DNA from: JAUXIQ01 sp030620925 [NCBI: Nitrospinota bacterium]
GTDB lineage: Bacteria; JAUXIQ01
Direction: 5' to 3'
DNA length: 6,353 nt
Assembly (NCBI GenBank): GCA_030620925.1
Contig: JAUXIQ010000123.1
Coordinates: 1 to 6,353, forward strand
Position 1 is the stretch's first letter; the number at the start of each line of letters is the position of its first letter. A program made the position numbers and the translations under genes. Shown piece by piece: positions 1-6,234 of the stretch. Below the pieces are notes generated by a model. The model was not told the DNA's origin, searched no databases, and saw nothing but the letters and a program-made list of their open reading frames with translations.

Positions 1-557
1 CAGACATGGGCATGGTAGCAGCCGGGAGGAAGCAGGGGGTATCGGCAACCGCATACCTTTTCGAGTCCTTGATAGACCCCGGGGCACACATTGTAGAGGG
101 CTACGGAAACATAATGCCCCCGGTTCACAAAGCGCCTATTTCCCTGAACGAATCGGAACTGATGACCATGGTGGCGTTTCTGCAGAGCCTGGGGGGAACG
201 GTTACAGTGACCCGCGAGGATATCCCCCCTGAGGTGAGGAAGGCCGGGGCGGGTTCAGTTGCCTCTGGCGTGGGAGTTGGTGCGGTTCCGGGGGTAGCCG
301 AGAAGGGGGAAGAACTGTTTCGCAAGCACTGCACGGTCTGCCATATAGTTAAGGGCGTGGGAGGGGCTCTGGGTCCCGACCTTAGTTCTATAGGAGCCCG
401 GAAGGAAGAAGGATTCATCGGAGAGTCCATACTCATCCCGGGAGCGGTGATTGCCGAGGGTTACCCTCCGGTAATGCCGCCTAATTTCTCTGAGCAGCTC
501 ACAGTTAAGGGGTTCAGCGACCTTATGGCATATATAATGAGCCTTAAAGGAGAATAG
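1..557 (+). CDS. Cytochrome c with at least two class I-type domains, 5' end outside the window
   Basis: This is a partial gene: the reading frame is open from base 3 and the first methionine codon (base 6) lies inside a domain, so the true start is upstream. Numbering from that methionine, residues 19-63 are the C-terminal half of one cytochrome c domain, with a candidate axial Met at residue 37 in an IMPP motif. Residues 98-183 form a complete second domain with heme motif CTVCH at 109-113 and a candidate axial Met at 157 in VMPP. The two halves repeat each other (a PGA then EGY then MPP pattern at 25-39 and 145-159), so the gene arose by domain duplication and a further CxxCH is expected upstream. 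A Gly/Ala/Val-rich linker (80-97) joins them. The product should be a periplasm-facing electron carrier or complex subunit. The next gene starts four bases after the stop. Confidence is high for cytochrome c and low for the specific partner. Confidence 0.9.
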   Translation, partial: DMGMVAAGRKQGVSATAYLFESLIDPGAHIVEGYGNIMPPVHKAPISLNESELMTMVAFLQSLGGTVTVTREDIPPEVRKAGAGSVASGVGVGAVPGVAEKGEELFRKHCTVCHIVKGVGGALGPDLSSIGARKEEGFIGESILIPGAVIAEGYPPVMPPNFSEQLTVKGFSDLMAYIMSLKGE

Positions 558-564
558 GATATTG
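545..564 (+). promoter_or_regulatory. Ribosome binding site supporting a TTG start
   Basis: AAAGGAG at 546-552, inside the last codons of the preceding cytochrome gene, sits nine bases before the TTG at 562. No ATG or GTG lies close by in the same frame, and translation from this TTG begins just before a good hydrophobic membrane segment. This supports the rare TTG start and suggests translational coupling with the upstream gene. Confidence 0.6.
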
Positions 565-1296
565 CGGTCGAAGTTCGTTCAGGTAGTATTGATAGCAGTG
601 GTTATTTTCCTGTTTCTGAAACTGGGTATCAGGCCGCCTATACCCGGCAGCCTCATTACCCTCTTCATGGCCATAACCGCTTTAACCCTTTTTATCTATG
701 TTTCGTCCGACGAGGAATCATGGCAGGATTTCATCAGGCCCATACTGGCGACACTGGTTGAGGAGAAAAGGGCGAGGCTGAGGCTGATCGTATTCATAGT
801 TTTCCCCCTCCTGGTGGGTTGGGGGACTTTGAAGGTAATGATGCCCGGCGTGGATCCCCCTGCCGAGCTGCGTGTCATACACCCTGCACCTCCCTCTAAC
901 ATACAGTTTCGGGGGAAGAATATAAAAATTGAGGGGCTGGTAAATCCCTTGCGAGAGAACGGTGAAGAAGCATCGGGTTATATAAAAGAAGGTATGGAGA
1001 TTTATTTTAAGAACTGTTTTTTCTGTCATGGCGACGCTTTGGACGGGAATGGACATTTTACCCTGGCGTTAAACCCGCCTCCCGCTGATTTTACCGACAC
1101 TGGAACCATCGCCCAATTGCAGGAATCGTATCTTTTCTGGAGGATCGCCAAAGGGGGAATCGGACTTCCCCGGCAATCAAAGCCCTGGAATTCCGCCATG
1201 CCCGCCTGGGAAGAGAACCTTACAGAGGATGCAATTTGGAAGACAATCATGTACCTATACCATGCAGCGGGAGTCTCACCACGCACCTGGGAATAA
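562..1296 (+). CDS. Membrane-anchored monoheme cytochrome c with three N-terminal transmembrane segments
   Basis: The 244-residue product has two closely spaced hydrophobic segments at about 6-23 and 30-47, a charged stretch with ARG/LYS/GLU (50-74), and a third hydrophobic segment at about 75-93. A soluble cytochrome c domain follows at about 135-238. The heme motif is CFFCH at 152-156, followed by a GDALDGNGH segment typical of small cytochrome c domains, and the likely axial Met is 213 in SAMPAW. Three spans put the C-terminal heme domain on the opposite side of the membrane from the N-terminus, consistent with a periplasmic heme. The start is TTG, chosen for its ribosome binding site. Spacing of 4 and 5 bases to its neighbours indicates one operon and probably one complex. 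It resembles cytochrome c subunits that accompany bc-type or other quinol-oxidising complexes, but no quinone-binding or b-heme signature is visible here. The family assignment is good; the complex is inferred. Confidence 0.88.
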   Translation: MRSKFVQVVLIAVVIFLFLKLGIRPPIPGSLITLFMAITALTLFIYVSSDEESWQDFIRPILATLVEEKRARLRLIVFIVFPLLVGWGTLKVMMPGVDPPAELRVIHPAPPSNIQFRGKNIKIEGLVNPLRENGEEASGYIKEGMEIYFKNCFFCHGDALDGNGHFTLALNPPPADFTDTGTIAQLQESYLFWRIAKGGIGLPRQSKPWNSAMPAWEENLTEDAIWKTIMYLYHAAGVSPRTWE

Positions 1297-1301
1297 CATG
1301 A

Positions 1302-2840
1302 ATGGACGGCGAAACAGCTATGTACAAAATAAAAGATATTATGAAAACCTCTATTTCGGTACTTATGCTTAGCGGCCTTCTTGTAGCCGGAAGCCTGGCT
1401 GATGCTCAGACTGAAAAGGCCCCTGCACTCTCACAGGAAGCCGAGGCGGGGCGTTCCTTATATAACGACTGGTGCGCCGGCTGCCACGGTGCAGATGGTC
1501 TGGGGGACGGACCGGCGGCGGATTACCTCGATCCCCGGCCGCGGAATTTCGTAGACGGCGCTTTCAAGATAAGAAACACTGTTAGCGGCGAGCTGCCCAC
1601 CGATGAGGACATCTTTAAGATGATCGACGTGGGGATGCCCGGCTCCTCTATGCCCGGGTGGAAGAAACAATTTTCCGAAAAGCAGATACACCAACTCGTG
1701 GCATACATTAAAACCCTCATAGACATGGAATTCTTCGGAGAAGAAATACCTGAAAAAATAACTGTCGGTGAACCCCTGCCTTCGTCAGCTGAAAGCCTGG
1801 CAAAGGGGAAGGAGCTCTATCGAAAGCTCAAATGCTGGGAGTGCCATGGAGAGGAAGGACGGGGGGACGGCCCCTCCGCGCCCACTCTGAAAGACGACTG
1901 GGGCAACCCCATCATATCCGCTGACATAACCAAAGGCTGGACCTTCAGAGGAGGCAGCCATACTTTCGATATTTATCGTACTTTTACCACAGGTCTCGAC
2001 GGAACCCCCATGCCCTCATACATAGACACTATCGGCGATGAAGACAGATGGCATCTTTCAAACTACGTTAAATCCCTGTCCCCTCTGGAGATGCCGCCGG
2101 TGAAGACGGTGCTCACCTCCAGGAGGATCAAGGGCGAGATACCCGGTAACCCCGACGACCCGATCTGGCGGCAAGGAGAAGATTATTTTTTCCCGTTAGC
2201 AGGCCAGATAGTTTTTGAGCCCAAATTATACACCCCCTCTATAGATTCCATACTGATCAAGTCTGTGTACAATGACAAGGAAGTAGCCTTCCTCATAACA
2301 TGGAACGACAGAACCCGGAACGCCCCTGAGAAAGGAAAAGATGAGCTTCCCGACTCTATGGCCGTTCAATTTCCGGTTGAACTGAAGGATGAGAGGCCTC
2401 ATTTCGTCCTGGGGGATGCGGGCAACCCCGTCAATCTCTGGAAGTGGAAGGCTGGAGGTGATACATTGGAGGAAGCCAATGCCAGGGGAGTAGGAAAGTA
2501 TTTTCCCCAGGGGCCCGAAAGTCAGGGCTTGAAGGGGGATGCTGCGTATATGCACGGGCGGTGGAAGCTGATCGTGAAAAGGTCCCTGACTACCGAAGAA
2601 GAAAACAATGACATTCAGTTTGTCCCCGGGGAATTCATCCCTATTTCCTTTCTGGCCTGGGACGGGTCCAATAATGAAGCAGGGGGTAAAATGTCCCTCT
2701 CCAGTTGGTACTATCTGGTGTTAGAGAAACCCGTTACCGCCAGGGCGTTCATTTTCACTCCCCTGGCAATATTGGGTGCAGTGGGCCTGGAGTTTCTGGC
2801 TATGCGCAGGGCACGGAGGGGCGCTCGCAGCCGAAATTAA
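1302..2840 (+). CDS. Exported diheme cytochrome c fused to an ethylbenzene dehydrogenase gamma/NxrC-like heme-b domain, membrane-anchored
   Basis: The 512-residue product has a signal peptide with the hydrophobic core at about 17-33 and a likely cleavage after ADA at residue 35. Cytochrome c domain 1 spans about 45-142, with CAGCH at 58-62 and candidate axial Met117. Domain 2 spans about 163-262, with CWECH at 178-182 and candidate axial Met237. Residues about 275-475 resemble the ethylbenzene dehydrogenase gamma (EB_dh) family, which binds heme b in ethylbenzene, DMS, selenate and chlorate enzymes and in nitrite oxidoreductase NxrC. The DSMAVQFP segment (351-358) and the GRWKLIVKR segment (419-427) match its conserved blocks and offer Met353 and a Lys as possible heme-b ligands. 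A hydrophobic segment at 481-500 followed by an Arg-rich tail anchors the C-terminus with the bulk outside. The start is ambiguous: ATG 1302, 1320 and 1341 are all in frame, and 1341 gives the most compact signal peptide. It follows the previous gene by five bases. The electron-relay role is inferred from family. Confidence 0.87.
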   Translation: MDGETAMYKIKDIMKTSISVLMLSGLLVAGSLADAQTEKAPALSQEAEAGRSLYNDWCAGCHGADGLGDGPAADYLDPRPRNFVDGAFKIRNTVSGELPTDEDIFKMIDVGMPGSSMPGWKKQFSEKQIHQLVAYIKTLIDMEFFGEEIPEKITVGEPLPSSAESLAKGKELYRKLKCWECHGEEGRGDGPSAPTLKDDWGNPIISADITKGWTFRGGSHTFDIYRTFTTGLDGTPMPSYIDTIGDEDRWHLSNYVKSLSPLEMPPVKTVLTSRRIKGEIPGNPDDPIWRQGEDYFFPLAGQIVFEPKLYTPSIDSILIKSVYNDKEVAFLITWNDRTRNAPEKGKDELPDSMAVQFPVELKDERPHFVLGDAGNPVNLWKWKAGGDTLEEANARGVGKYFPQGPESQGLKGDAAYMHGRWKLIVKRSLTTEEENNDIQFVPGEFIPISFLAWDGSNNEAGGKMSLSSWYYLVLEKPVTARAFIFTPLAILGAVGLEFLAMRRARRGARSRN

Positions 2841-2869
2841 TTATGGAAACCAAAAGAGAGGGCAGTCTA

Positions 2870-3859
2870 ATGTACAGTAATGTTCTCGTTCCCATCGATA
2901 ATTCAGTTCCCTCACGGGATACGATTTCCGCCGCAGCCTGGTTGGGGAGAGGGTTCGGGGCGTCCATGACATGTCTCCATGTCTACGCCGCTAAGCTTCA
3001 TGAGAGGTCTTTTGTGAAGCTGGAGCCTTTCCTGCCTCATGAATATCGGGACCTAGGCCAGATGGCGGCGCAAAGGGAATTCCACGGAGCCCTGATTGAA
3101 AAGGGCCTTCGTTCCATATCCGAATCTTATGTGCAAAAAGCGACAGAGACGCTCAAATCGGCGGGGCTCCAATGCGTATATAAATCCATAGAGGGGAAAA
3201 ACTTTCAGGTGATAGTGGAAGAGGCCGCAAATGACCCATACAATCTTATCATCATGGGAGCACACGGATGGGGAAAGGAAAGAAATTCGATATTGGGCAG
3301 TGTGTGTCACAGGGTGGTGAGGACCGTCAATAAAGATACATTGATTATAAAAAACGCTGCTGTCCTTAACAACGAGGGTGAGATAATGGTGGCCCTGGAC
3401 GGAAGCCTTGACTCCTTTACTGCGCTGAATAAAGCCCTGGAGCTGGCGCTGGCTCTGGATATGAAGGTCAGCGCCGTTACTGTTTACGATCCCCAATTCC
3501 ACTACAGGGTGTTTAAAAGCTTGATGGAAGTTCTTTCCAAGGAAGCTCAAAGCATATTCCCCCTGGAACACCAGGAACGACTGCATACCGCGGTCATTGA
3601 CAAGGGCCTCAAGAACGTGGCCCAGGGCTATCTGGAGCATGCCAAAAAGGTTGGAGCCGAGCGTGGACTGCAAGTGGATACCCACCTTCTGGAGGGAAAG
3701 CCCTTCAGTGCCATACTTGACCTCCTGGAAGAGCGACGGCCCTCATTATTGGTCACCGGGAAGCATGGAAGCCATCATAGTGAGCTAAGCACTATCGGTA
3801 GCAACACGGAAAACCTGCTGTTGCTCTCCAGCGTTAACCAGCTGGTGGCAGGCAATTAG
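2870..3859 (+). CDS. Tandem-domain universal stress protein (UspA family)
   Basis: Starting at ATG 2870 gives 329 residues beginning MYSNVLVPID, the canonical first strand of a Usp domain. A purine-rich ribosome binding site (AGAGAGGG, about 2855-2862) precedes it. The frame is open further upstream (to 2705), but that part overlaps the cytochrome gene in another frame and lacks Usp similarity, so I reject it. Domain 1 covers about 1-162 and domain 2 about 170-326. Both keep the ATP-binding pattern G-x2-G-x9-G-S: G130/G133/G143-S144 and G297/G300/G310-S311. The domains also share an internal block (EKGL/DKGL near 77-80 and 244-247, then GL near 99-100 and 266-267, and EGK near 108-110 and 275-277), showing duplication. 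No signal peptide or membrane segment is seen, so it should be cytoplasmic. It lies 29 bases after the heme protein gene and probably shares its transcript. ATP binding and a stress or energy-state role are family knowledge; a specific function cannot be read here. Confidence 0.9.
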   Translation: MYSNVLVPIDNSVPSRDTISAAAWLGRGFGASMTCLHVYAAKLHERSFVKLEPFLPHEYRDLGQMAAQREFHGALIEKGLRSISESYVQKATETLKSAGLQCVYKSIEGKNFQVIVEEAANDPYNLIIMGAHGWGKERNSILGSVCHRVVRTVNKDTLIIKNAAVLNNEGEIMVALDGSLDSFTALNKALELALALDMKVSAVTVYDPQFHYRVFKSLMEVLSKEAQSIFPLEHQERLHTAVIDKGLKNVAQGYLEHAKKVGAERGLQVDTHLLEGKPFSAILDLLEERRPSLLVTGKHGSHHSELSTIGSNTENLLLLSSVNQLVAGN

Positions 3860-4002
3860 CTCCGGGGAAGAACAATTCGTTGGATGTTTTTAGCCCCGCC
3901 CCACTTCTCGGAGTGTTATTTCAGGAGGAGTTTCACAAAAGTTTCCGGTAGGATGATGATCAACCCTTTTTTAAATCTTCCTCAATGGTGAGGTATGTGA
4001 CA
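3860..4002 (+). other. Intergenic region between the cytochrome/Usp run and the radical SAM gene
   Basis: This 143-base gap is the first real break in the gene run and a plausible place for an operon boundary. CTCCG (3860-3864) and CGGAG (3909-3913) can pair, with GGGG and CCCC runs between them, and weakly T-rich sequence follows (TGTTATTT, 3914-3921). The loop is large, so a terminator is only possible. A strong Shine-Dalgarno-like AGGAGGAG at 3923-3930 has no start codon at a usable distance. A 12-codon frame beginning ATG 3953 ends at 3991, just where the ribosome binding site for the next gene lies. I find no convincing -35/-10 pair. Confidence 0.35.
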
Positions 4003-4005
4003 ATG
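3988..4005 (+). promoter_or_regulatory. Ribosome binding site that favours ATG 4003 over ATG 3985
   Basis: GTGAGG at 3988-3993 lies nine bases before ATG 4003. The alternative in-frame ATG at 3985 is preceded only by pyrimidine- and A/T-rich sequence with no Shine-Dalgarno match. The protein from 4003 begins MDYVPF, directly before the conserved N-terminal strand of the radical SAM domain. Confidence 0.55.
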
Positions 4006-5217
4006 GATTACGTTCCTTTTATAGTTTCCTGGAACAGCACAAAAAGATGCAACCTCAAGTGCGCTCACTGTTATCTGGACGCCAGGGAACTAGAGTTCGG
4101 CGGGGAGGACGAGCTGACCACCGATGAAGGTATTCAGCTGATAGACTCCATCGCTTCCCTTAACCCCAAGGCCTTCCTCATCCTCACCGGCGGCGAACCA
4201 CTATTGAGGGAGGACGTCTTTGAGTTGGCGTCTCACGCTTCTTCCAGGGGGTTAATGGTTCTGTTGGGGACCAACGGCACCCTGCTCGATGAGGCGATGG
4301 TGAAAAAGATCAAAGGGTGCGGGATAAGGGGACTGGGGATGAGCCTCGATTCCATGGACCCTGAAGTCCACGATTCTTTTAGAGGCATGGCAGGAAGCTG
4401 GTCGAATACGGTGGAAGGGATGAATAGATGCAGGAGCGCGGGTCTCGACTTCCAGGTACAAACCACGGCAACCCGTGGGAACATTAGCGAGATCGCTTCC
4501 ATCATAGACTATTCCCGCGAGATGGGCGCCAGGGTGTTCAACTTGTTCTTCCTGGTGTGCACCGGAAGAGGTCAAGACCTGACTGACCTTACACCCCAGG
4601 AATACGAGGAAGCCCTCTCTCTGCTCCTTGAGGAACATTCAAAGGGCGGTGATATGATGGTAAGGGCGCGTTGCGCGCCGCACTTCAAAAGGGTTGCAAG
4701 ACAGAAAAACCCGGACGATTTCTTCGCCGGAGCAGAGATGAGCGGGTGTCTTGCAGCCAAGAACTACTTTCGGGTGACGCCGAACGGAGATGTAACCCCA
4801 TGCCCCTACATGCCCCTTTCAGCCGGAAACTTGAGAGAGAAGGGTCTCGAGAGCATCTGGCATGATTCGGAGCTGTTTCATAACCTGAGGAGCTCTTCGT
4901 TAAAAGGTAAATGTGGCCGTTGTGAGTTCAATGAGATTTGTGGTGGTTGCAGGGCCAGGGCTCTGGCCATAAAGGGAGACGCTATGGAAGAAGACCCCTG
5001 GTGCCTGCATCAGCCCTCCGGGAAAAAAGAGATGGATGCTGAAGAGCAAGGCGACCTCCAATGGACTCCGGACGCAGAGAAGCTGATGGACAAAATACCC
5101 TTTTTCATCAGGAACTCTGTCAAGAAGGGAGTAATCGAGTACGCAAAGAAAGAAGGGCTCTCCCTTATCACACCCGAAATCCTCAGCAAGTTAAAAAGAA
5201 AGGTCAGGCCTCATTAG
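4003..5217 (+). CDS. Radical SAM/SPASM protein of the NirJ/AhbC/AhbD heme-synthesis group with a C-terminal PCP_red-like domain
   Basis: The product is 404 residues from ATG 4003 (410 from ATG 3985). The radical SAM core is about 5-215: CNLKCAHC (C16, C20, C23) binds the SAM-linked 4Fe-4S cluster and GGEP at 63-66 contacts SAM. The FNLFFLVCTGRG segment (179-190) is very like the NirJ/AhbD group. A SPASM-type auxiliary cluster region follows: C249, then G262-x4-C267, then C304-x2-C307-x5-C313-x2-C316 and C334. Known relatives make heme d1 (NirJ) or heme b by the siroheme route (AhbC, AhbD), acting in the cytoplasm on tetrapyrrole side chains. Residues about 352-402 (WTPDAEKLMDKIPFFIR, then an EYAKKEG and an ITPEI block) resemble the PCP_red domain found at the C-terminus of protochlorophyllide reductase subunit B and in other proteins. 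A charged linker (340-351) separates the parts. Which heme product is made cannot be decided here; peptide-modifying SPASM enzymes are a less likely alternative. Confidence 0.88.
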   Translation: MDYVPFIVSWNSTKRCNLKCAHCYLDARELEFGGEDELTTDEGIQLIDSIASLNPKAFLILTGGEPLLREDVFELASHASSRGLMVLLGTNGTLLDEAMVKKIKGCGIRGLGMSLDSMDPEVHDSFRGMAGSWSNTVEGMNRCRSAGLDFQVQTTATRGNISEIASIIDYSREMGARVFNLFFLVCTGRGQDLTDLTPQEYEEALSLLLEEHSKGGDMMVRARCAPHFKRVARQKNPDDFFAGAEMSGCLAAKNYFRVTPNGDVTPCPYMPLSAGNLREKGLESIWHDSELFHNLRSSSLKGKCGRCEFNEICGGCRARALAIKGDAMEEDPWCLHQPSGKKEMDAEEQGDLQWTPDAEKLMDKIPFFIRNSVKKGVIEYAKKEGLSLITPEILSKLKRKVRPH

Positions 5218-5255: not shown

Positions 5256-5663
5256 GTGGATACGGAATTAACCACTCGAAATGATACGTTAAAGGGCAGG
5301 CCCCCGGAGGCAATCTTAATCTGTCTCTATTTTTTCCTCGGTGCTTTCCTTCAACTTTACGCTTACCTTAAAGGTGCAGAAATCCTTAATTACGGCACAC
5401 CCTCCATTCGGAACTTTATAATCTACTGCGGCTTTTCACCGATGGTGGGCTATTTCCTGTGGATCAAAAACAGAAGGGCGAGATTCGCGGCCTACATATT
5501 CTTGACTATGGAGATCGTGAGGTCGATTCGTGGAGGCGACCCTTTACCCCTTTCCATTGCTGCCTTGGCCATTTTGACCCTTCAAACGGCCAGGATGAGG
5601 AAAGTCTACCCTTCTTTGCTAAAAAAGGGGAAGATGAAATCATGCGCCGAAGACAATAGTTAA
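5256..5663 (+). CDS. Small unrecognised multi-span membrane protein
   Basis: The 135-residue product starts at GTG 5256, seven bases after AGGA (5245-5248). I do not recognise the family. Hydrophobic segments lie at about 18-38, 53-70, 77-90 (less certain, with charged residues near its end) and 96-111, giving three or four membrane spans. A basic cluster KNRRAR (71-76) after the second span should sit on the cytoplasmic side. The N-terminus (1-17) is polar, and the C-terminus is Lys-rich then acidic with a single late Cys (130). There is no heme motif, no Cys-pair metal site and no signal peptide. The gene begins 38 bases after the radical SAM gene and may be cotranscribed with it. Codon use and composition look like its neighbours, and the long open frame with a membrane pattern argues it is real. 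No function is assigned. Confidence 0.68.
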   Translation: MDTELTTRNDTLKGRPPEAILICLYFFLGAFLQLYAYLKGAEILNYGTPSIRNFIIYCGFSPMVGYFLWIKNRRARFAAYIFLTMEIVRSIRGGDPLPLSIAALAILTLQTARMRKVYPSLLKKGKMKSCAEDNS

Positions 5664-5799: not shown

Positions 5800-6234
5800 A
5801 TGAAGGGATACAGAAAAGTATTATGGATTTTCATTGCCCTTTTTGTGGTCCCACAATCAACACTTGCTGTCGGTGACCTGAGCAACCAGAACCCTATAGT
5901 AGTTACCGTAATCCTTGGTTCAGAGAAAAATGAACTCACTTTTTTCCCTGAAAAACTGACTTTTGAGACCGGCAAACTTTACAGGCTGATATTGAAAAAC
6001 TCGAGTCCTCAGAAACACTATTTCACCTCACCGGGGTTTGCAGCCTCAGTCTGGACGAGAAAGGTGCAGGATAGTTCCATGGAGGTCAAAGGGGCTATCA
6101 GAGAAATAGAGCTCCTGCCAGGTAAAACCGCCGAATGGTTTTTTGTGCCCGTAAAGACGGGAACTTTTGGACTTTATTGCCACATATCTGGTCACAAGGA
6201 AGCAGGCATGGTAGGTATCATCGAAATAAAATGA
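5800..6234 (+). CDS. Exported cupredoxin (type 1 blue copper protein)
   Basis: The 144-residue product has an N-terminal signal peptide (basic MKGYRK, hydrophobic core about 8-17, likely cleavage near 23 after TLA). The mature part is a single cupredoxin-type beta barrel. The apparent type 1 copper ligands are His73 in KHYF, then Cys127, His132 and Met137 in the YCHISGHKEAGM segment (126-137), so the full His-Cys-His-Met set is present. The C-terminal loop resembles auracyanin-, sulfocyanin- and plastocyanin-like carriers, which shuttle single electrons outside the cytoplasmic membrane. The ribosome binding site GGGAGGA (5783-5789) lies ten bases before ATG 5800, a clear start. It could receive or donate electrons to the cytochromes encoded upstream, but it is separated from them by two other genes and a gap, so the partnership is inferred. 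A copper-binding or copper-resistance role is a weaker alternative. Confidence 0.88.
   Translation: MKGYRKVLWIFIALFVVPQSTLAVGDLSNQNPIVVTVILGSEKNELTFFPEKLTFETGKLYRLILKNSSPQKHYFTSPGFAASVWTRKVQDSSMEVKGAIREIELLPGKTAEWFFVPVKTGTFGLYCHISGHKEAGMVGIIEIK

Follow-up and report, generated by a model that had tools for sequence, protein, structure and literature searches.

A radical SAM enzyme with a PCP_red tail that may modify a tetrapyrrole for a bd-like oxidase complex

AhbD, a radical SAM enzyme of heme synthesis, turns the two propionates of coproheme into vinyl groups, and the M. barkeri enzyme most likely carries two [4Fe-4S] clusters, according to passages of PMC3942049. Passages of PMC6606698 and PMC3578206 describe a gene cluster that combines a bd-like oxidase with an alternative NxrC, known from Nitrospira, Nitrospina and anammox bacteria; N. 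moscoviensis transcribes it strongly, its role is described as yet to be established, and neither text contains the term "radical SAM". Our search of the openly licensed literature, with subscription papers mostly outside it, returned no paper linking either PCP_red or a bd-like oxidase to a radical SAM enzyme of the kind described below. The window, by which we mean the whole 6,353-nucleotide stretch analyzed here (contig JAUXIQ010000123.1 of a Nitrospinota bacterium), holds the following features.

3..557, + strand: cytochrome c, "cytc28", gene cut by the contig's left end (PF00034; gene maps)
562..1296, + strand: cytochrome c, "cytc18" (PF13442, PF00034; gene maps)
1302..2840, + strand: two cytochrome c domains and an ethylbenzene-dehydrogenase-type heme b domain (PF00034 twice, PF09459)
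2843..3859, + strand: tandem universal stress protein (Usp), start at 2843 or 2870 (PF00582, two stretches)
4003..5217, + strand: rSAM-PCP gene, radical SAM/SPASM enzyme with C-terminal PCP_red (ORF, Pfam, NCBIfam)
4033..4467, + strand: radical SAM core, residues 11-155 (PF04055; C16, C20, C23; GGEP 63-66)
4747..5004, + strand: SPASM/auxiliary Fe-S region, residues 249-334 (C249, C267, C304, C307, C313, C316, C334)
5062..5196, + strand: PCP_red domain PF08369, residues 354-398 (Pfam, own-genome search)
5256..5663, + strand: small hydrophobic ORF (no family match in Pfam)
5800..6234, + strand: cupredoxin-like protein (weak PF13473/PF00127 matches, below cut-off)

Positions 1-2840 resemble the stretch of a bd-like oxidase operon that encodes its cytochromes c and NxrC-like subunit, cut short by the contig end. 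The product of 1302..2840 scores 124.4 bits against TIGR03477, under the cut-off of 169.85, and by its domain make-up would be an alternative NxrC-like subunit. Like the published cluster, as far as the passages describe it, the window has two cytochromes c and an NxrC-like cytochrome c, with the bd-like gene found in the related locus L126 and others; we equate the two by this make-up, not by sequence comparison. Locus L126 carries a single-order run of bd-like oxidase, cytc28, cytc18, alternative NxrC, Usp and rSAM-PCP, the bd-like gene lying directly upstream of the cytc28 homolog, and the window matches this run from its cut edge on. Because the window begins inside cytc28, the gene that follows bd-like in L126, a bd-like gene is expected just off the contig; none was matched in the window's own genome, which is 89% complete. 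Clustering also places a homolog of the cupredoxin-like protein upstream of the bd-like gene in locus L123, and it is uncertain whether the ORF at 5256-5663 belongs to the module.

The ORF at 4003-5217 encodes a protein of 404 aa (an in-frame ATG at 3985 would make it 410 aa). A preliminary description of this DNA had read it as a complete radical SAM core with a SPASM-type Cys set and a PCP_red-like tail at about residues 352-402, and all three domains pass their Pfam cut-offs, with the Cys motifs present: Radical_SAM at residues 11-155 (E 9.1e-25, 88.2 bits vs a cut-off of 29.5), with CxxxCxxC at C16/C20/C23 and GGEP at residues 63-66; SPASM (PF13186) at residues 249-308 (E 4.9e-11, 43.2 bits vs 21.5); and PCP_red at residues 354-398, over the full model 1-45 (E 1.9e-13, 50.6 bits vs a curated cut-off of 32.5). 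The PCP_red domain of BchB/ChlB, a protochlorophyllide reductase of chlorophyll synthesis, is thus matched in its entirety by a 45-residue tail that is here joined to a radical SAM enzyme, and the tail also matches solved BchB chains (2kru at residues 350-399, E 1.4e-8; 3aek at residues 347-398, E 6.1e-5). A six-frame search of the whole genome gave this stretch as its sole PCP_red match. The fusion of a heme-type radical SAM enzyme with a PCP_red tail is confirmed.

Nor is the fusion confined to this genome. A genome collection scan begun from three fused proteins gave 544 confirmed relatives, of which the best 80, a set that the starting proteins bias towards fused ones, all have the domain within the ORF itself, with a single PCP_red copy in 78 and three in the proteins of L095 and L106, as counted with an HMM made from 14 PF08369 matches that include the window's own. 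Nearly all of these 80 come from MAGs, and they span Nitrospira and other Nitrospirota, Nitrospina, Poribacteria, Deltaproteobacteria, several Proteobacteria and a Gemmatimonadaceae MAG. An independent check is provided by a sample of 241 genomes, in which 12 matches at E<=1e-110 (own included) all have the tail, the next match falls at 1.7e-95 and every weaker one stops by residue 364; the E<=1e-110 line was drawn after this gap had been seen. The radical SAM/SPASM Cys columns are 100% Cys in 29 members, and in the tail all 26 aligned members keep W354, P366, F368 and V373. With invariant tail residues in a conserved domain fusion, the association goes far beyond chance. The preliminary description had treated the fusion as an isolated one; the fusion itself held up, and its isolation did not, the gene being one of a conserved set that, in some relatives, also contains a bd-like oxidase and an NxrC-like subunit. 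This gene context, in which rSAM-PCP stands alongside a poorly understood respiratory complex, is what the present analysis adds.

The predicted structure of rSAM-PCP (mean pLDDT 88.1, pTM 0.82) has block means of 74-88 for residues 351-400 and only 53 for the linker at 341-350, which makes the modeled position of the tail relative to the core unsure. Its nearest solved folds are those of PqqE, a PQQ enzyme, and of the peptide maturases SkfB and SuiB, with PqqE also the top PDB sequence match (E 4.6e-21). Together with the respiratory gene context, these folds could suggest that rSAM-PCP is a SPASM enzyme acting on peptides or proteins, with a subunit of the bd-like complex as its maturation target. 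As the 34 PDB sequence matches include no chain named NirJ or AhbD, such folds are no strong argument for a peptide substrate. The maturase profiles score about half as high as the heme-type models or lower (GeoRSP 182.6 bits, cut-off 400; mycofactocin 138.7, cut-off 265; PqqE 133.6, cut-off 381.35), and rSAM-PCP reaches no maturase or other equivalog cut-off among the 25 of 85 NCBIfam families listed; PCP_red and the HemY neighbors described below point instead to tetrapyrroles, and we consider peptide modification quite improbable.

The highest scores are those against NirJ2 (TIGR04055, 346.1 bits) and AhbD (TIGR04545, 333.5 bits), neither of which reaches the equivalog cut-off of 500, with six relatives at 303-346 bits against AhbD and rSAM-PCP itself at 193.9 bits against NirJ (TIGR04051), where the equivalog cut-off is 515.45. 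For phylogenetic placement, 92 rSAM-PCP proteins were available (the 80 best relatives, the window's own and 11 from further genomes), 29 of which entered each of two trees; a few fragments, duplicate rows and any core shorter than 250 aa had been removed before the first, and both trees were built from rows other than peptide maturases. In a first tree of 115 rows, support for the rSAM-PCP group was 70 and a very long row, L050, stood next to it. A second tree, with L050 and L238 left out, 67 cores sampled from the other 113 and tails removed, recovered the 29 rSAM-PCP proteins as one clade (96/98), with NirJ2 as its sister (94/93; its rows L229 and L230 exceed the NirJ2 cut-off), AhbD apart from it in the same half, and AhbC and NirJ in the other half (100/100). 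The rSAM-PCP core thus lies outside the AhbD clade. By these scores and this topology rSAM-PCP is a member of the AhbD/NirJ2 half and, on their own cut-offs and clades, neither AhbD nor NirJ2, and the heme-type assignment made in the preliminary description is borne out.

Residue patterns in the 115-core alignment follow the same lines: rSAM-PCP shares C224, C249, C267 and C316 with AhbD and NirJ2 rows but with few AhbC rows, and C304, C307, C313 and C334 with all three groups. AhbD and rSAM-PCP share C224-A-P and the auxiliary Cys residues as well as a tree half, and by analogy they likely perform the same kind of side-chain chemistry, although AhbD rows have E11 and R24 where the rSAM-PCP family has N11 and Y24. 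NirJ2 has the same Cys set as rSAM-PCP. Tail-less matches in genomes G113 and G137, which exceed the NirJ2 cut-off, are 43-46% identical to rSAM-PCP and measure 330-335 aa without a PCP_red tail, vs 404 aa for rSAM-PCP; the NirJ2 gene of L229 has an AhbC-type gene about 1 kb away.

The sister position of NirJ2 could be taken to mean that rSAM-PCP acts in heme d1 synthesis as a NirJ2-type enzyme, and cytochrome d1-type proteins do occur in 7 of 29 genomes that we surveyed (28 of which were chosen for holding rSAM-PCP; G047 is the one without it). The remaining 22, the window's own included, gave no cytochrome d1 match at E<=1e-30, and this absence from most genomes already weakens the reading. 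In the own genome, at 89% completeness, it also agrees with the preliminary observation that nirS is missing. Two of the genomes, G195 and G229, moreover hold a separate NirJ-like gene near their cytochrome d1 genes, and rSAM-PCP falls short of the NirJ2 cut-off, so that a role in heme d1 synthesis seems to us barely plausible. G195 holds four NirJ-family members in all, spread over contigs C3, C7 and C13 (L225, L150, L190): rSAM-PCP, an AhbC-type protein, AhbD and the NirJ-like protein near cytochrome d1.

The preliminary description had also suggested a step in siroheme-dependent heme b synthesis and a survey of the genome for that route. HemY, HemQ-family and HemH proteins have no match in the own genome (89% complete), and its contig C66 encodes a protein of AhbC type, at 566.5 bits vs a cut-off of 650, and a truncated one of AhbD type, whose 279 aa score 426.6 bits vs a cut-off of 500. 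As judged from these genes, the genome looks like one using the siroheme-dependent route; the assignment of rSAM-PCP to the route finds no support, for the AhbC- and AhbD-type steps have genes of their own and rSAM-PCP is a further paralog. Across the 28 rSAM-PCP genomes, 13 have HemY, HemH and a HemQ-family protein (PF06778, which covers true chlorite dismutases too), 8 have HemY and HemH only, and G000, G087, G195 and G229 have AhbC- and AhbD-type genes but neither HemY nor HemH, G195 with a HemQ-family match in addition; the remaining 3 (G074, G076, G080) fall outside these groups. The route names are provisional, as they were drawn from HemY, HemH, the HemQ family and AhbC/AhbD. Because rSAM-PCP occurs beside three heme b routes, and separate AhbC- and AhbD-type genes are present in the own genome and in relatives, it probably does not catalyze a standard heme b step.

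Other PCP_red proteins and neighboring genes bear on the substrate. Among the best 80 of 544 relatives, 46 have a Usp gene within 300 bases of rSAM-PCP, and 45 of these 46 Usp proteins carry PCP_red; the adjacent homologs mostly have 1-4 copies, unlike the window's own Usp, in which the profile count found none. In genome G005, a PCP_red domain (47.5 bits) forms the N-terminus of a Chlor_dismutase/ChdC-family protein (202.2 bits; L022:736-1698, - strand), a fusion that supports the tetrapyrrole link proposed earlier for the PCP_red module and, with rSAM-PCP, suggests for PCP_red a broader link to tetrapyrroles, beyond chlorophyll synthesis alone. The rSAM-PCP protein of G005 groups with Nitrospina in the tree.

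A HemY-type gene follows rSAM-PCP within 1 kb in 7 of the best 80 loci, the product in L106 scoring 250.5 bits vs a cut-off of 97.85. Five surveyed genomes have such a neighboring HemY: in G072, G073, G075 and G081 it is the genome's only HemY match and HemJ is present too, and G074 has a second HemY and lacks HemJ. A sole HemY placed beside rSAM-PCP while HemJ is present suggests a dedicated oxidase and not a housekeeping one. A HemY tree separates the 6 operon rows from the remaining 16 and splits them into a pair and a set of four, with no resolved position for either, and so gives no reading of copro- or protoporphyrinogen specificity.

These neighbors could also be read in favor of an oxygen-independent coproheme decarboxylase, in which rSAM-PCP would perform the AhbD function and supply ordinary heme b where ChdC or HemF is unable to operate, with the neighboring HemY providing coproporphyrin. 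The tree half and Cys set shared with AhbD, the HemY neighbors and the fusion of a ChdC-family protein to PCP_red are all consistent with this, and passages of PMC10548856 report AhbD genes beside hemY/hemH/hemQ. Nevertheless, the AhbD score lies well under the equivalog cut-off and the clade is separate; the own genome, G087, G195 and G229 have an AhbD-type gene as well; and the link to a bd-like oxidase would not be expected of a general heme b enzyme. We regard this function as rather unlikely.

Across the 241-genome sample, a bd-like oxidase (E<=1e-30) occurs in 17 genomes, rSAM-PCP in 12 and both in 11 (Fisher p 4.6e-14, not corrected for kinship), the one rSAM-PCP genome without a bd-like match being the incomplete genome of the window. 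As a control for specificity, a tail-less AhbD/NirJ2-type match (E<=1e-60, ending by residue 364) is found in 49 of the 241, only 4 of which have a bd-like gene, and 3 of those 4 hold rSAM-PCP as well. Six of the 17 bd-like genomes (G031, G047, G056, G109, G119, G258) are without rSAM-PCP, which is therefore no constant requirement of the complex. In the 29-genome survey, a bd-like match at E<=1e-5 is present in 28 genomes and in 27 of the 28 with rSAM-PCP, the weakest being that of G078 (2.1e-52). The match of G087 in the 241-genome sample is a distant one (E 6.3e-63, 513-aa frame). At the level of single loci, the bd-like gene lies in the same locus as rSAM-PCP in 7 of the best 80 and on the same stretch in 4 of 11 further genomes (L215, L216, L221, L226), and no bd-like gene is near rSAM-PCP in the other 73 of the 80, each covered for at most 10 kb on either side and often less. 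A comparison of bd-like sequences gave D88 and K343 (L126 numbering) as a candidate signature of rSAM-PCP genomes, each present in 14 of 16 sequences from genomes with rSAM-PCP and 1 of 6 from genomes without it; two columns of this kind also arise in 16 of 500 label shuffles, kinship not removed, and we treat this as a weak lead only.

On evidence drawn entirely from sequence, and with a probability that we put at roughly 0.55, rSAM-PCP would be a tetrapyrrole side-chain-modifying radical SAM enzyme that serves the bd-like/NxrC-like/cytochrome c complex. Its family and Cys set are most simply read as pointing to an AhbD-like attack on a side chain of a tetrapyrrole: SAM would most likely be cleaved at the CxxxCxxC cluster, and the resulting 5'-deoxyadenosyl radical would abstract a hydrogen from a porphyrin or heme side chain, probably a propionate, with the auxiliary cluster assisting as inferred from AhbD. 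The probable role of the PCP_red tail is to hold the tetrapyrrole, or else to dock rSAM-PCP to further PCP_red proteins like the Usp neighbors seen in relatives. The bd-like oxidase/NxrC-like/cytochrome c complex would use the product, a heme or a modified heme, a destination that we infer from co-occurrence and gene order. The co-occurrence suggests, short of proof, that rSAM-PCP prepares a special heme for this complex, and the presence of both in 11 of 12 sampled genomes offers a concrete way to ask which heme the complex holds.

More tentatively, it is possible that this side-chain chemistry belongs to a dedicated pathway for an unrecognized heme, in which rSAM-PCP would alter the porphyrin or heme side chains, the HemY-type enzyme, where present, would finish the oxidation, and Usp-PCP, zinc-ribbon-PCP and ChdC-PCP proteins would hold or pass the pigment, and whose product would serve the bd-like oxidase/NxrC-like complex of nitrite oxidizers and others as a special cofactor.

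Several further observations concern the neighborhood. A small membrane protein adjoins rSAM-PCP in Nitrospira and Poribacteria and lies within 2.5 kb in 54 of the best 80 loci; the window's ORF 5256-5663 did not cluster with it. The candidacy of this membrane protein as a HemJ analog was rejected, as one member gave no UPF0093 match and matches to DUF4149, Sdh_cyt, CopD and TMEM192 were weak and under their cut-offs. Two Usp proteins, L014:376-2427 and L023:754-2709, consist of a tandem Usp followed by three PCP_red domains, the latter also with a rubredoxin-like stretch below the Pfam cut-off. The frame L025:1492-2373 has a weak PCP_red match (21.7 bits, below cut-off) and ferredoxin-like Cys motifs in its remainder, and by eye its product looks like a sulfite-reductase-type protein. 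Finally, many Nitrospira loci have a B12-binding radical SAM protein and a UbiE-type methyltransferase upstream of Usp and rSAM-PCP (L076:5940-7595, L075:3498-4316), the former scoring 449.8 bits against the slr0320 model, with a cut-off of 775.
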